A stretch of DNA of 64,000 nt from Kocuria rhizophila DC2201 (GTDB lineage: Bacteria; Actinomycetota; Actinomycetes; Actinomycetales; Micrococcaceae), in NCBI RefSeq assembly GCF_000010285.1, contig NC_010617.1, positions 682,001 through 746,000 on the forward strand, written 5' to 3'. A program made the position numbers and the translations under genes. Of the stretch, positions 1 through 33,456 are shown piece by piece. Each line of letters starts with the position of its first letter. The first letter of the stretch is position 1. Below the pieces are notes generated by a model. It was given only the letters and a program-made list of their open reading frames with translations, had not been told where the DNA came from and ran no database searches.

Positions 1-105
1 AACGACGGGGACCCCCGCGGCACGCGCATCTTCGGCCCCGTGGGCCGCGAGCTGCGCGACAAGAAGTTCATGAAGATCGTCTCGCTGGCTCCGGAGGTGC
101 TCTGA
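1..105 (+). CDS. rplN: 50S ribosomal protein L14, C-terminal end (partial)
   Basis: Only the last 34 codons are in the window. They read in frame from base 1 to a TGA and end in the L14 C-terminal pattern ([23 protein letters not shown] without its middle would be family-typical; key parts are ARG-rich GPVGRELR and SLAPEVL). L14 binds 23S rRNA and contacts the 30S subunit at bridge B8. The gene opens the visible part of the spc operon, with rplX starting one base after its stop, so the two are co-transcribed. The start lies upstream of the window. Confidence 0.95.
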
Positions 106-9898: not shown

Positions 9899-9936
9899 GC
9901 GTGGTCACCGGGCTCTCACGAGCCCGGTGACCACGC
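9899..9936 (+). terminator. Perfect 17-bp hairpin between rpsK and rpoA
   Basis: 9899-9915 pairs perfectly with 9920-9936 over the loop TCAC; the arms run GCGTGGTCACC...GGCTC. There is no T-tract after it. It is likely a terminator or attenuator that splits the ribosomal and RNA polymerase genes. Confidence 0.65.
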
Positions 9937-13720: not shown

Positions 13721-14224
13721 GTGGCTCAGAACACTGAAGAGCAGATCACCGAGGACGTGGAGCTGACCAGCTACACCTCCGAGTCCACCGAGTCCGTGGC
13801 CGGCTCCGCCGCCATGTCCGAGCGCCCCGCGCTGACCGTCCCCGGCCAGGCCGTGGGCCGCCGCAAGCAGGCCATCGCCCGCGTGCGCCTGGTTCCCGGT
13901 TCCGGCAAGTGGACCGTCAACGGCCGCAGCCTGGAGGAGTACTTCCCCAACAAGCTGCACCAGCAGGAGGTCAACGACCCCTTCACGCTGCTGGAGCTGC
14001 AGGGCGGCTACGACGTCATCGCCCGCATCAGCGGCGGCGGCCCCTCCGGCCAGGCCGGTGCGCTGCGCCTTGGCGTGGCCCGTGCCCTCAACGAGATCGA
14101 CGCCGAGCACAACCGCCCGGCGCTGAAGAAGGCCGGCTTCCTCACCCGTGACGCCCGCGTCATCGAGCGCAAGAAGGCCGGCCTCAAGAAGGCGCGCAAG
14201 GCTCCGCAGTACTCCAAGCGCTAA
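13721..14224 (+). CDS. rpsI: 30S ribosomal protein S9
   Basis: The protein is 167 aa. S9's C-terminal tail reaches P-site tRNA and ends, as it should, in QYSKR. The core starts near residue 43 ([19 protein letters not shown]), so there is an acidic ~40-residue N-terminal extension, common in actinobacteria. [13 protein letters not shown] and [19 protein letters not shown] are conserved. GTG 13721 has AAGGAGAA (13711-13718) upstream. A repeat-rich region follows. Confidence 0.96.
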
Positions 14225-14225
14225 A

Positions 14226-14315
14226 CGACGCCACCCGGCCCCCGGCCGGACTGCGTCTTGCAGGGTCCCGTTCCTCGGCTTCGGCCGGGGGCCGGGGCCC
14301 TGCGTCGTTTGGCGC
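14226..14315 (+). repeat. Structured tandem repeat, copy 1 (90 bp)
   Basis: Four arms occur in the order A-B-A'-B'. A is GGCCCCCGGCCG (14237-14248) and A' is CGGCCGGGGGCC (14282-14293), 12 bp perfect. B is GCAGGGTCCCG (14260-14270) and B' is CGGGGCCCTGC (14293-14303), 11 bp with one G-T wobble. The arms interleave, allowing a pseudoknot or two alternative hairpins. Copy 2 begins 110 bases downstream. Confidence 0.85.
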
Positions 14316-14335
14316 TTGGCTCCCCTCGCGCTGGC

Positions 14336-14425
14336 CGACGCCACCCAGGCCTCGGCCGGGTTTCGTCTCGCAGGGTCCCGTACCCTGGCTTCGGCCGAGG
14401 CCCGGGGCCCTGCCTCGTTTCGCGC
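14336..14425 (+). repeat. Structured tandem repeat, copy 2 (90 bp)
   Basis: The layout matches copy 1. A is GGCCTCGGCCG (14348-14358) and A' is CGGCCGAGGCC (14392-14402), 11 bp. B is 14370-14380 and B' is 14403-14413, identical to copy 1. Relative to copy 1 the A stem has lost one base in each arm and swapped a C-G for a T-A pair, so both arms changed together. Confidence 0.85.
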
Positions 14426-14576
14426 CCGGGTTCGCCGCGCGGTGGGTGGGACGAGCGGGGGAGCCGCACGCGGCGTCGTCGTGACCGGTGTTGCGCGGGT
14501 ATCCGCAACGTGACGCGGGCGTAAAGTGCGAGGTGGGGCACCGCAGCCCCCACCGCACCGTCACGAGAGGGCCCGT

Positions 14577-15617
14577 ATGAGCAAGCAGCCGGACCAGCAG
14601 CAGGAGAACGCCATCATCGCGAAGGCCGAGGACGAGGCGGCGCAGCACGCCCGTCAGGACAGCGCGGTGGACGAGGCCCTCAAGAAGGAGCAGCACCGGG
14701 TGTCGGTGGTCGAGGACTACGCGGCGGAGCTCGACGAGATCGGCGAGCTGGACAGGAAGCTGCACAAGAAGCGCGGCGCGGAGGACTCGCAGGCCTGGAA
14801 GATCGGCTACCCCTACGATGAGAAGCTCTCCCGCAAGGACTACGAGCGCACCAAGCGTGCCCTGCAGATCGAGCTGCTCAAGCTGCAGCTGTGGATCAAG
14901 GAGACCGGCCAGAAGCTGCTCATCATCTTCGAGGGTCGTGACGCGGCGGGCAAGGGTGGAGCGATCAAGCGCTTCACGGAGCACCTGAACCCCCGTGGCG
15001 CGCGCGTGGTGGCCCTCGAGAAGCCCACCGACATCGAGCAGACGCAGTGGTACTTCCAGCGCTACGTGCAGCACCTGCCCTCGGGCGGCGAGATCGTGCT
15101 CATGGACCGCTCGTGGTACAACAGGGCCGGCGTGGAGCGCGTGATGGGCTACTGCACCTCCCAGCAGTACTACGAGTTCATGCGCCAGGCCCCGGAGTTC
15201 GAGCGGATGCTGGTGAACTCGGACACCCACCTGATCAAGTTCTGGTTCTCGGTCACGCGTGCCGAGCAGCTGGCGCGCTTCCAGTCGCGCCGCACGGACC
15301 CCGTGCGCCAGTGGAAGCTCTCGCCCACGGACGTGGCGTCCCTGGACAAGTGGGACGACTACACCGAGGCCAAGGAGGCGATGTTCTTCTACACGGACAC
15401 CGGAGACGCGCCCTGGACCGTGATCAAGTCCAACGACAAGAAGCGCGCCCGGCTGGAGGCCATGCGCTACGTGCTCACGCAGTTCGACTACCCCAACAAG
15501 GACCACTCCCTGGTGGGTTCGGTGGACTCCAAGATCGTGGGCGGCGCCACGGACTTCACGGACGACAACGGCGCCAACCCGGACGGCTTCCCGGTGGTCC
15601 GCCCCGGCAAGGACTGA
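14577..15617 (+). CDS. ppk2: Polyphosphate kinase 2
   Basis: The protein is 346 aa. It transfers phosphate between polyphosphate and nucleoside di/triphosphates. Walker A GRDAAGKGGAIKRF begins at residue 120, and Walker B/lid MDRSWYNRAGVERVM has Asp177. FTEHLNPRGARVVALEKPT and TQWYFQRYVQHLPSGGEI are PPK2 signatures. Residues 1-70 are a charged helical extension. ATG 14577 has GAGAGG 6-11 bases upstream. It stands as its own unit between rpsI and glmM; which nucleotides it prefers cannot be read from sequence. Confidence 0.93.
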   Translation: MSKQPDQQQENAIIAKAEDEAAQHARQDSAVDEALKKEQHRVSVVEDYAAELDEIGELDRKLHKKRGAEDSQAWKIGYPYDEKLSRKDYERTKRALQIELLKLQLWIKETGQKLLIIFEGRDAAGKGGAIKRFTEHLNPRGARVVALEKPTDIEQTQWYFQRYVQHLPSGGEIVLMDRSWYNRAGVERVMGYCTSQQYYEFMRQAPEFERMLVNSDTHLIKFWFSVTRAEQLARFQSRRTDPVRQWKLSPTDVASLDKWDDYTEAKEAMFFYTDTGDAPWTVIKSNDKKRARLEAMRYVLTQFDYPNKDHSLVGSVDSKIVGGATDFTDDNGANPDGFPVVRPGKD

Positions 15618-15665: not shown

Positions 15666-17021
15666 ATGTCTAGAATCTTTGGAACGGACGGCGTCCGCGG
15701 TCTCGCGAACGGCCTCCTCACAGCAGAACTGGCCATGGAGCTGTCGCAGGCCGCGGCGATCGTCCTGGGCCACCGCCACGCACCGGAGGGACAGCGCCCC
15801 ACGGCCGTGGTGGCGCGGGACGGCCGGGCGAGCGGTGAGTTCATCGGCGCCGCCGTCACCGCGGGTCTCGCGAGCTCCGGCGTGGACGTCTACGACGCCG
15901 GCGTGCTCCCCACCCCGGCCGCGGCGTACCTGGTGGGGGACATCGACGCCGACTTCGGCGTGATGATCTCCGCCTCGCACAACCCCGCGCCGGACAACGG
16001 GATCAAGTTCCTGGCCCACGGCGGCAAGAAGCTGCCCGACGCCGTGGAGGACACCATCCAGCAGGTCTACGAGGCCAAGGACTTCGTGCGCCCCACGGGC
16101 GCCGAGGTGGGCCGTGTGACCCGCCTGTCCGACGCCGAGGACCGCTACATCCTGCACCTGGTGGGCGCCATCCCGCACCGCCTGGACGGACTGTCCATCG
16201 TGCTGGACTGCGCCAACGGCGCGGCCTCGGGAGCCTCCCCGGACGCCTTCCGGGACGCGGGCGCCACCGTGCACGTGATCGGTGCGGAGCCCGACGGCCT
16301 GAACATCAACGACGGCGTGGGCTCCACGCACCTGGGCCCGCTCAAGCAGGCGGTCCGGGAGCTGGGCGCGGACCTCGGGATCGCGCACGACGGCGACGCC
16401 GACCGCTGCCTCGCGGTGGACCACACCGGCACGGAGGTGGACGGGGACCAGATCATGTGCATCCTGGCCGTTGCCATGAAGGAGGCCGGGCGGCTGAACC
16501 AGGACACCCTGGTGGCCACGGTGATGAGCAACCTGGGTCTGCAGCTCGCCCTCGACGAGGCCGGGATCACCCTGGTGCGCGCCTCCGTGGGGGACCGCTA
16601 CGTCCTGGAGTCCATGGTGGCCAACGGCTACAACCTGGGCGGGGAGCAGTCCGGACACGTGATCATGGCGGACTACGCCACCACGGGGGACGGTCTGCTG
16701 ACCGGGCTGATGCTGGCCTCCCGCGTGGCCCAGACGGGCATGCCCCTGCAGGAGCTCGCCCGCACCATGACGCGGATGCCGCAGGTGATGATCAATGTGA
16801 AGAACGTGGACAAGGCCGCGGCCAAGACCAGCGAACCGGTCCTCGAGGCCGTGGCCCGTACCGAGGAGCGGCTCGGGGCGGAGGGGCGTGTGCTGCTGCG
16901 CCCGTCCGGTACCGAGCCGGTGGTGCGCGTGATGGTCGAGGCCGCCACGCACGAGGACGCCCGCCGGGAGGCGGAGCAGCTCGTCTCCGCCGTGGAGGAG
17001 CACCTCAGCCTGCAGAGCTGA
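15666..17021 (+). CDS. glmM: Phosphoglucosamine mutase
   Basis: The protein is 451 aa. It converts glucosamine-6-phosphate to glucosamine-1-phosphate for UDP-GlcNAc and peptidoglycan. The phosphoserine is Ser104 in [18 protein letters not shown]; the metal loop DGDADRC is near residue 245 and the phosphate-binding [15 protein letters not shown] is near 417. It begins [15 protein letters not shown]. glmS, the preceding step in the pathway, is 1.6 kb downstream beyond the convergent mscL-coaA pair. Confidence 0.97.
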
Positions 17022-17032
17022 ACCACGGACGG

Positions 17033-17070
17033 ACGAGGGCCCCGCATCCTGGTGGATGCGGGGCCCTCGT
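17033..17070. terminator. Bidirectional hairpin between glmM and mscL
   Basis: 17033-17049 pairs perfectly with 17054-17070 (17 bp; arms ACGAGGGCCCC...GCATCC) over TGGT. It sits between two convergent genes, so it probably serves both. Confidence 0.75.
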
Positions 17071-33354: not shown

Positions 33355-33377
33355 GCGGCTGACGCACCCGGCACCGA

Positions 33378-33420
33378 CCACGGCGCCCGGCACCGGGAGA
33401 ACCGGTGCCGGGCGCCGTGG
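33378..33420. terminator. Perfect 19-bp bidirectional hairpin
   Basis: 33378-33396 pairs perfectly with 33402-33420 (arms CCACGGCGCCC...GGCACCGG) over GAGAA. It lies between the convergent ino1 and phosphatase genes, so it can end both transcripts. Confidence 0.8.
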
Positions 33421-33456
33421 TGCCTCCGGGGTCCGCCCGCGTGCGGGAGGTGCGGC

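Follow-up and report, generated by a model that had tools for sequence, protein, structure and literature searches.

A candidate REP-like palindrome at the 3′ end of rpsI in Kocuria rhizophila and other Micrococcaceae

The rpsI locus and its tandem repeat

In K. rhizophila DC2201 the genes rplM and rpsI are followed by two copies of a repeat, by ppk2 and by glmM (Table 1; positions refer to the window, which is the whole stretch of 64,000 nucleotides analysed, at 682001–746000 of the contig). As originally predicted, the copies are spaced by 110 nt, the 98-mers 14218–14315 and 14328–14425 being 83% identical as compared with 46% for the best tandem identity among 30 dinucleotide shuffles of 14200–14440. 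A DNA search of the own genome returned the locus and its inverted self-match, with a looser E-value adding two matches of 22–35 nt, so that a repeat dispersed over the K. rhizophila genome was rejected. The whole tandem matches the Kocuria genome G026 with an E-value of 1.3e-66.

Table 1. Positions of the genes and structural features at the rpsI locus of K. rhizophila.
Feature	Positions	Strand	Remarks
rpsI (ribosomal protein S9)	13721–14224	+	ORF; relatives in 27/27 Kocuria genomes
rpsI last codons AAG CGC TAA	14216–14224	+	inside P1 of copy 1
Copy 1, P1 5′ arm (rpsI coding end and stop codon)	14214–14231	+	inverted repeat; 17 Watson-Crick pairs and 1 G·U; R1 match
Copy 1, stem A 5′ arm (corresponds to the apical stem of the family)	14234–14248	+	inverted repeat
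Copy 1, stem B 5′ arm GCAGGGTCCCG; hairpin is probably the native terminator	14260–14270	+	by eye also present in relatives whose P1/A is weak or missing
Copy 1, TTCG-loop hairpin at the tip of hairpin B	14273–14290	+	6 Watson-Crick pairs and 1 G·U
Copy 1, stem A 3′ arm	14282–14296	+	overlaps the B 3′ arm
Copy 1, stem B 3′ arm	14293–14303	+	has the GGGGCCC box common to the units of other genera
Copy 1, P1 3′ arm	14302–14319	+	reverse complement of the rpsI end with one G·T; weak T-rich tail GTCGTTT at 14304–14310
Junction CTCCCCTCGCGCTGG...	14320–14343	+	resembles a displaced rpsI 3′ end relic (CTCC..GCGCTGA in G026); starts copy 2; by eye
Copy 2	14324–14429	+	A 14344–14358/14392–14406 (14 Watson-Crick pairs, 1 mismatch); B 14370–14380/14403–14413 (10 Watson-Crick pairs, 1 G·U)
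ppk2 (polyphosphate kinase 2)	14577–15617	+	PF03976, E 2e-102; downstream of the repeats
glmM	15666–17021	+	3′ of ppk2; glmM relatives

In the K. rhizophila group rpsI and glmM are separated by a ppk2-like sequence; in other Kocuria, for example G023 and G013, glmM directly follows rpsI. Ahead of ppk2 a promoter-like stretch GGGCGTAAA(A/G)T is present (14513–14530; loci L109–L112), and since it recurs in several genomes of the K. rhizophila group, ppk2 may have a promoter of its own behind the hairpins. Further long perfect palindromes of the window, with short loops and arms of 17, 17 and 20 nt, are located at 17033–17070, just 3′ of glmM, at 9899–9936 and at 33377–33421, respectively.

Secondary structure of the two copies

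The longest helix of copy 1 is the outer stem P1 with its arms of 18 nt. Inside it lie the two stems that had been predicted as interleaved arms in the order A-B-A′-B′. Both are found in place: the arms of stem A (14237–14248 with 14282–14293) are exact complements and extend to 14234–14248/14282–14296 with 15 of 15 positions paired, whereas the longest perfect arm in 100 shuffles is 13, and stem B (14260–14270 with 14293–14303) pairs with one G·U. The main helix P1 had been overlooked. The interleaving is not supported as the conserved plan of the element, as relatives in other genera keep P1 and one apical stem, the equivalent of A.

Comparison of the two copies reveals two pairs of stem A changed on both sides (C-G to T-A and C-G to G-C) and one pair lost (G-C to A·C). 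The first exchange and the lost pair had been recognised before, while the second exchange was missed and the description of both stems as perfectly paired was too strong, copy 2 having 14 of 15 pairs. P1 of copy 2 is decayed, with 11 Watson-Crick pairs, 2 G·U pairs and 5 mismatches. The predicted RNA fold of copy 1 has an energy of −82.0 kcal/mol (z −8.9; equally low energy in 0 of 200 shuffles) and that of copy 2 an energy of −59.4 kcal/mol (z −2.7; 2 of 200 shuffles as low).

Within P1, which both share, stems A and B are mutually exclusive. For copy 1 the fold energies are nearly equal, −82.0 kcal/mol with A and −80.2 kcal/mol with B, and thus allow both of the competing inner hairpins that had been proposed. 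By the same measure B wins in copy 2 and in the Kocuria genomes G012 and G016, and A wins in both copies of G026. A calculation on the growing transcript of copy 1, which is model arithmetic, lets A form first and B take over once the polymerase has advanced about 98 nt through the unit; in the complete unit A returns, with a probability of 0.93.

Stem B across the genus Kocuria

The DNA downstream of rpsI was read in all 27 Kocuria genomes of the set, rpsI having been found in each, and by eye a strong GC-rich hairpin lies within 150 nt after the gene in 27 of 27. In the K. rhizophila group this hairpin is B (CAGGGTCCCG...CGGGGCCCTG), which in K. rhizophila is followed by the GTCGTTT tail. 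Copy 1 has a strong P1 in both G000 and G026, and A occurs with a weak P1 in G012 and G016. By eye the genome G001 has the P1-A-B plan with different letters and its relative G002 has B without A; the lowest-energy fold of G001 forms B. In G009 and G025 a local hairpin replaces A. As P1 and A come and go while B remains, B is most simply taken as the native rpsI terminator and P1/A as an addition. A simple terminator scan listed none at the feature in the window; automatic terminator picking, which chose wrong hairpins for many loci (for example inside glmM), was used as a lead only.

Related elements behind rpsI in other genera

A model built from genera other than Kocuria, denoted R1, matches the window end to end at 14214–14319 with 55.4 bits and an E-value of 4e-9. 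In the own genome copy 1 is the sole match at E ≤ 0.01 (150 of 4073 candidate spots fully scored), and copy 2 is absent from the R1 matches at E ≤ 1. The R1 scores of copy 2 of G026, of G012 and of G016 are 22, 26 and 23 bits, respectively. Units of the K. rhizophila plan (P1, then CCC-hairpin-GGG[GT]CCC) are found with R1 at E < 1e-3 after rpsI in eight genera, and related copies in other genomes do therefore exist. With small variations they are built as P1 - U[AU]CCC - apical hairpin - GGG[GT]CCCUC - P1′ at a size of 60–106 nt.

The outer-stem pattern AAGCGCTNA-(40..70)-TTNGCGCTT occurs in 30 of 295 genomes of the family, with 4 in the reversed control; 23 of the 30 loci are rpsI ends and the other 7 are not. 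Order-wide, the outer pattern occurs in 10 of 396 genomes, 4 of them inside the family; the two loci read among the 6 others, those of G533 and G569, do not resemble rpsI ends. A P1 scan covered 94 genomes, a set later raised to 110, and 23 of its loci failed the reading as rpsI ends. A scan for nested perfect palindromes found the rpsI unit of G264 and missed the window's own element. The rpsI-specific counterpart of the junction 14320–14343 in other genera, GCGCTTGGCTCCACAAGCGC, was found with at most one mismatch in 31 of 295 genomes, which together contain 41 such places (0 in the reversed control); according to rpsI/glmM coordinates or reading, all 41 are located between rpsI and glmM.

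In genus g32, 19 of the 23 genomes in this sample have an intact unit at rpsI, two have a garbled or assembly-split one (G205, G249) and two are without (G241, G278). Among the genomes read in other genera, units follow rpsI in 5 of 11 (g31), 8 of 11 (g24), 3 of 4 (g19), 1 of 7 (g7), 1 of 6 (g12) and 1 of 1 (g30), counts which are not frequencies since several genomes were read because they matched a pattern. In g32 an ordinary U-tailed terminator, distinct from the unit, can be seen by eye behind the unit at rpsI, and the unit is consequently not needed for termination there. Runs of 6–7 T lie inside P1 in G140 and G204.

With Rfam, 0 matches reached the gathering cut-off in the window, and 15 loci of the element gave 6 matches up to an E-value of 1, all below gathering. 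A known RNA family was therefore rejected, and the original prediction likewise knew of no ribosomal-protein 3′ element of this form. For Kocuria and Arthrobacter the literature search turned up no account of an element of this kind; Arthrobacter livingstonensis is named in one table row of PMC12306157.

Covariation of the stems

In order to be aligned (alignment A1), 23 units of g32 and g31 from 22 genomes were used, 19 of the rows belonging to one genus; left out of a total of 33 units were those of G255, G077, G222, G204, G082, G140, G300, G088b and of the Kocuria genomes G000 and G026. Standard pairs make up 95.2% of the 805 pair cells as compared with 71.3% in shuffles, and 182 cells are changed on both sides as compared with 59, which supports the assumption that structure rather than sequence is kept. 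Such two-sided changes affect 21 of the 35 pairs. The covariation score is 0.574, as compared with 0.137 in shuffles, which ignore relatedness, and with 0.07–0.13 in slid controls, which keep it. Fifteen of the 22 genomes came from the outer-stem pattern, which favours the outer pairs, and the seven found otherwise pair less perfectly (213 Watson-Crick and 9 G·U of 245 cells).

While the stems change together, the letters of the internal loop are kept (U-N / N-CCC-N-C): invariant in A1 are T21, C60–62 and C64 of this loop as well as the CGC/GCG pairs at the apical loop. The changes extend to the coding end. In g31 the terminal Arg codon CGC of rpsI becomes AGG (G143), CGG (G108) or CGT (G214, giving U·G) and the 3′ arm follows, and in G050 the stop codon TGA is matched by TCA in the 3′ arm.

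Wobble pairs are unevenly distributed. The apical stem comprises 351 Watson-Crick pairs, 17 mismatches and 0 G·U in 368 cells, and no apical pair varies on one side alone, whereas 18 of the 23 units have a U·G at the stop codon while its neighbours change. On the sense strand outside the stop position, A·C mismatches (18) outnumber G·U pairs (7). As a control, 31 U-tailed hairpins contain 58 G·U in 512 pairs, a crude comparison since these hairpins come from 31 of 110 sequences, several are not terminators and at least five are pieces of element units.

Units at the ends of other genes

Away from rpsI, R1 lists 53 places in the 30 genomes scanned, with 150 candidates scored per genome: 47 in six genomes of g24, 5 in g32 and 1 in g7. 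Within g24 the genomes G140, G276, G082 and G222 account for 17, 14, 7 and 6 places. The Kocuria genome G000 has 0. Twenty of the 53 places were fetched for inspection. In 20 of 20 the unit follows an ORF of at least 100 codons on the same strand, that is, it lies in sense orientation; 17 start −3 to +15 nt from the stop codon and the remaining three 54–60 nt past it, behind another unit. An opposite-strand ORF ends near the other side of the unit in 3 of 20. Nine of the 20 host ORFs were assigned by Pfam, namely to dihydroxy-acid dehydratase, rhodanese, AIR-synthase-related, GrpE, chaperonin, sigma-70 regions 3-4, DUF1844, UvrB and zinc-binding dehydrogenase. The element thus sits on the stop codons of ilvD-, groEL-, grpE-, sigma-70- and uvrB-type genes in other genera, and it can no longer be regarded as a ribosomal-protein 3′ element as such. 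A ribosomal-protein autoregulatory element was rejected for the same reason.

The five places in g32 share a common dehydratase C-terminus (one of the five was scanned with Pfam). Their stem holds the last Gly codon and TGA, and the Gly codons GGT, GGT, GGC, GGG and GGC are each matched by the 3′ arm (ACC/GCC/CCC). The outer stem contains the last codons and the stop in both rpsI and ilvD units, and the units of g24 start at the stop codon. Of the g24 host ORFs, 14 were read (L301–L313, L315), with TAG as stop in 10 and TAA in 4; three of the units are second copies. As all 14 ORFs ahead of the units end with TAG or TAA, the element may supply the stop codon of these genes.

Gain, loss and tandem copies

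Filled and empty sites form pairs within genera: G284 and G278 in g32, G143 and G062 in g31, and G140 and G055 in g24. In G284 an apparent displaced old rpsI end is still readable by eye before the terminator. Units are arranged in tandem in several genomes, with four copies in G119 and at least two in G050, G088, G204, G215, G276 and K. rhizophila. Between the genomes G302 and G232 the identity amounts to 99.6% for rpsI and to 99.2% for the downstream kilobase compared, and nevertheless the inner part of P1 and much of the apical stem differ, both versions being paired. From these filled and empty sites, the tandem copies and the differing core, it is deduced that the units behave like cassettes, which may be transferred or may change rapidly in place.

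Between unit and terminator, arrays of relics of about 27 nt (like GCGCTTGGCTCCACAAGCGCTCGTTGG) occur at L151, L157 and L284, and these look like layers of displaced rpsI ends. Contigs end or turn into G-rich nonsense at the palindrome in L177 (G205), L178 and L283 (G249), L108 (G012), L183 (G124) and L210 (G084), which suggests that the hairpin disturbs sequencing or assembly.

Discussion

The preferred reading, to which a probability of roughly 0.5 is assigned, is that a REP-like palindrome resides in sense orientation at gene 3′ ends of Micrococcaceae, that copy 1 of K. rhizophila is an intact and copy 2 a decayed unit, and that the palindrome originates by fold-back at the DNA level and is kept for the hairpin at the 3′ end of the mRNA. 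In this mechanism the gene end would be copied by fold-back, a form of template switching, which would create the 3′ arm and also refresh the palindrome. The hairpin in the mRNA would provide a very stable 3′ end which terminates or insulates transcription and blocks exonucleases, and a ribosome arriving at the stop codon would have to open it. In K. rhizophila the unit would have merged with the native rpsI terminator B, so that the RNA inside P1 could hold either A or B ahead of ppk2-glmM. Signs on the RNA side (the sense orientation, the conserved loop letters and the U·G at the stop codon) stand next to signs on the DNA side (the lack of G·U and of one-sided variation in the apical stem, the excess of A·C over G·U, the tandem copies and the block-wise differences), and this mixture favours a palindrome made or refreshed at the DNA level and kept for an RNA role. 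The absence of G·U from the apical cells is odd for selection on RNA alone and the U·G at the stop codon is odd for pure fold-back copying, and hence neither process by itself explains all observations. Counting against the REP-like reading, one locus is known in K. rhizophila and R1 missed copy 2, with the limited share of candidate spots scored as given above. The separate terminator behind the g32 units, the terminator scan of the window and the composition of A1, with most rows from one genus and most genomes found through the outer stem, also weigh against it.

Among the alternatives, a purely RNA-level cis-regulatory fold of the 3′ UTR around the stop codon fares best, although it is considered rather unlikely. 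Such a fold would be bound by a protein or sense terminating ribosomes, would control decay or read-through, and all pair changes would be ordinary compensation. The loop letters conserved amid freely changing stems, the uniform sense orientation, the U·G retained at the stop and the compensated synonymous codon changes are what it would lead one to expect. It sits poorly with an apical stem free of G·U and of one-sided variation, given the wobble pairs in the admittedly crude control hairpins, and with the block-wise differences between near-identical genomes and the tandem arrays, which resemble events at the DNA level.

Less probable still is a plain duplicated intrinsic terminator, in which B would be the rpsI terminator, the tandem a duplication, and A and P1 functionless by-products of template switching. 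The hairpin present behind rpsI throughout Kocuria, the persistence of B where A is missing or replaced (G002, G009, G025; by eye) and the capacity of template switching to create and mend stems (available part of PMC8794818) speak for it, but it leaves unexplained why the P1-apical plan recurs with identical loop letters in further genera and behind further genes, and why copy 1 is recognised by a model whose underlying units are not terminators.

An origin as attachment-site scars, left behind by integrative elements targeting the 3′ end of rpsI, is very improbable. The repeated CTCC(AC)AAGCGC would then represent displaced gene ends, and some streptococcal ICEs do use the rpsI 3′ end (PMC4701971, in part). 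This explanation would fit the rpsI-like ends found displaced behind units and the gene-end repeat seen when filled sites are compared with empty ones (both by eye), as well as arms of 7 nt around GCTCCA. Against it, a scan of 12 genomes gave 0 Phage_integrase matches on the rpsI contig up to 60 kb from the gene (the contigs of G037 and G185 being shorter than 50 kb), long rpsI-glmM gaps (L236–L242) are without an obvious integrase in ORF lists read by eye, and the same elements occur on other genes. An artefact of chance or composition in a GC-rich genome, where hairpins are common and the window alone holds eight perfect inverted repeats with arms of at least 14 nt within 130 nt, is refuted by the z-score of copy 1, the tandem identity far above shuffles, the cross-genus covariation and the R1 match.

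The REP-like reading invites comparison with known systems. Repetitive extragenic palindromes (REP/BIME), described in the consulted part of PMC3733652 as sequences of 20–40 bp in the GTAG and CGTC super-families, resemble the units in being palindromic, in lying near or overlapping coding ends and in occurring singly or repeated; the ends of GTAG REPs can supply a TAG stop, as the g24 units may do. In contrast to these REPs, the units described here measure 60–106 nt, have a gene-specific outer stem including codons as well as variable stem letters, and occupy one known locus in K. rhizophila. An unpaired GTAG or CGTC end tag is absent by eye from the rpsI units, and the g24 units start at their TAG or TAA stop.

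REPs located at most 15 nt from a stop codon are reported to stall ribosomes in E. coli (PMC12306157, in part). Both systems place a sense-oriented hairpin on the stop codon or next to it, and on this basis an effect on translation termination is a live alternative here as well. The present element, known from sequence, differs in that the stop codon can sit inside the stem and the pairs covary with synonymous codons. Intrinsic terminators, which according to the accessible part of PMC8355165 include clusters of hairpins without a U-tract, share the GC-rich hairpins right after the stop, B with its GTCGTTT tail and the tandem arrangement, whereas here P1 encloses the stop codon and the g32 unit precedes a separate U-tailed terminator. 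Template switching has been described, in the part of PMC8794818 at hand, as creating and maintaining stems with multi-base compensatory changes. Reverse-complement copies and such multi-base changes are seen in the units too, but the stems of that study derive from histories of RNA genes, whereas the units form a recurrent gene-end family with conserved loops.

A further and tentative proposal, held to be doubtful rather than probable, is that the units belong to a new class of mobile structured elements which inserts itself into gene ends and copies the last codons and the stop codon of the host gene into its own 3′ arm. The mRNA hairpin would then be locked over the stop and opened by translating ribosomes only, and the synonymous codons and the element would evolve as one unit. 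If the REP-like reading is right, a palindrome located downstream would constrain the synonymous codons that end ribosomal and housekeeping genes, and in these actinobacteria the 3′ ends of mRNAs would be tied to translation termination by a REP-like element. Since the stems evolve fast and many close genome pairs exist, the family would offer a natural test of RNA-level compensation against DNA-level template switching as the source of covariation.
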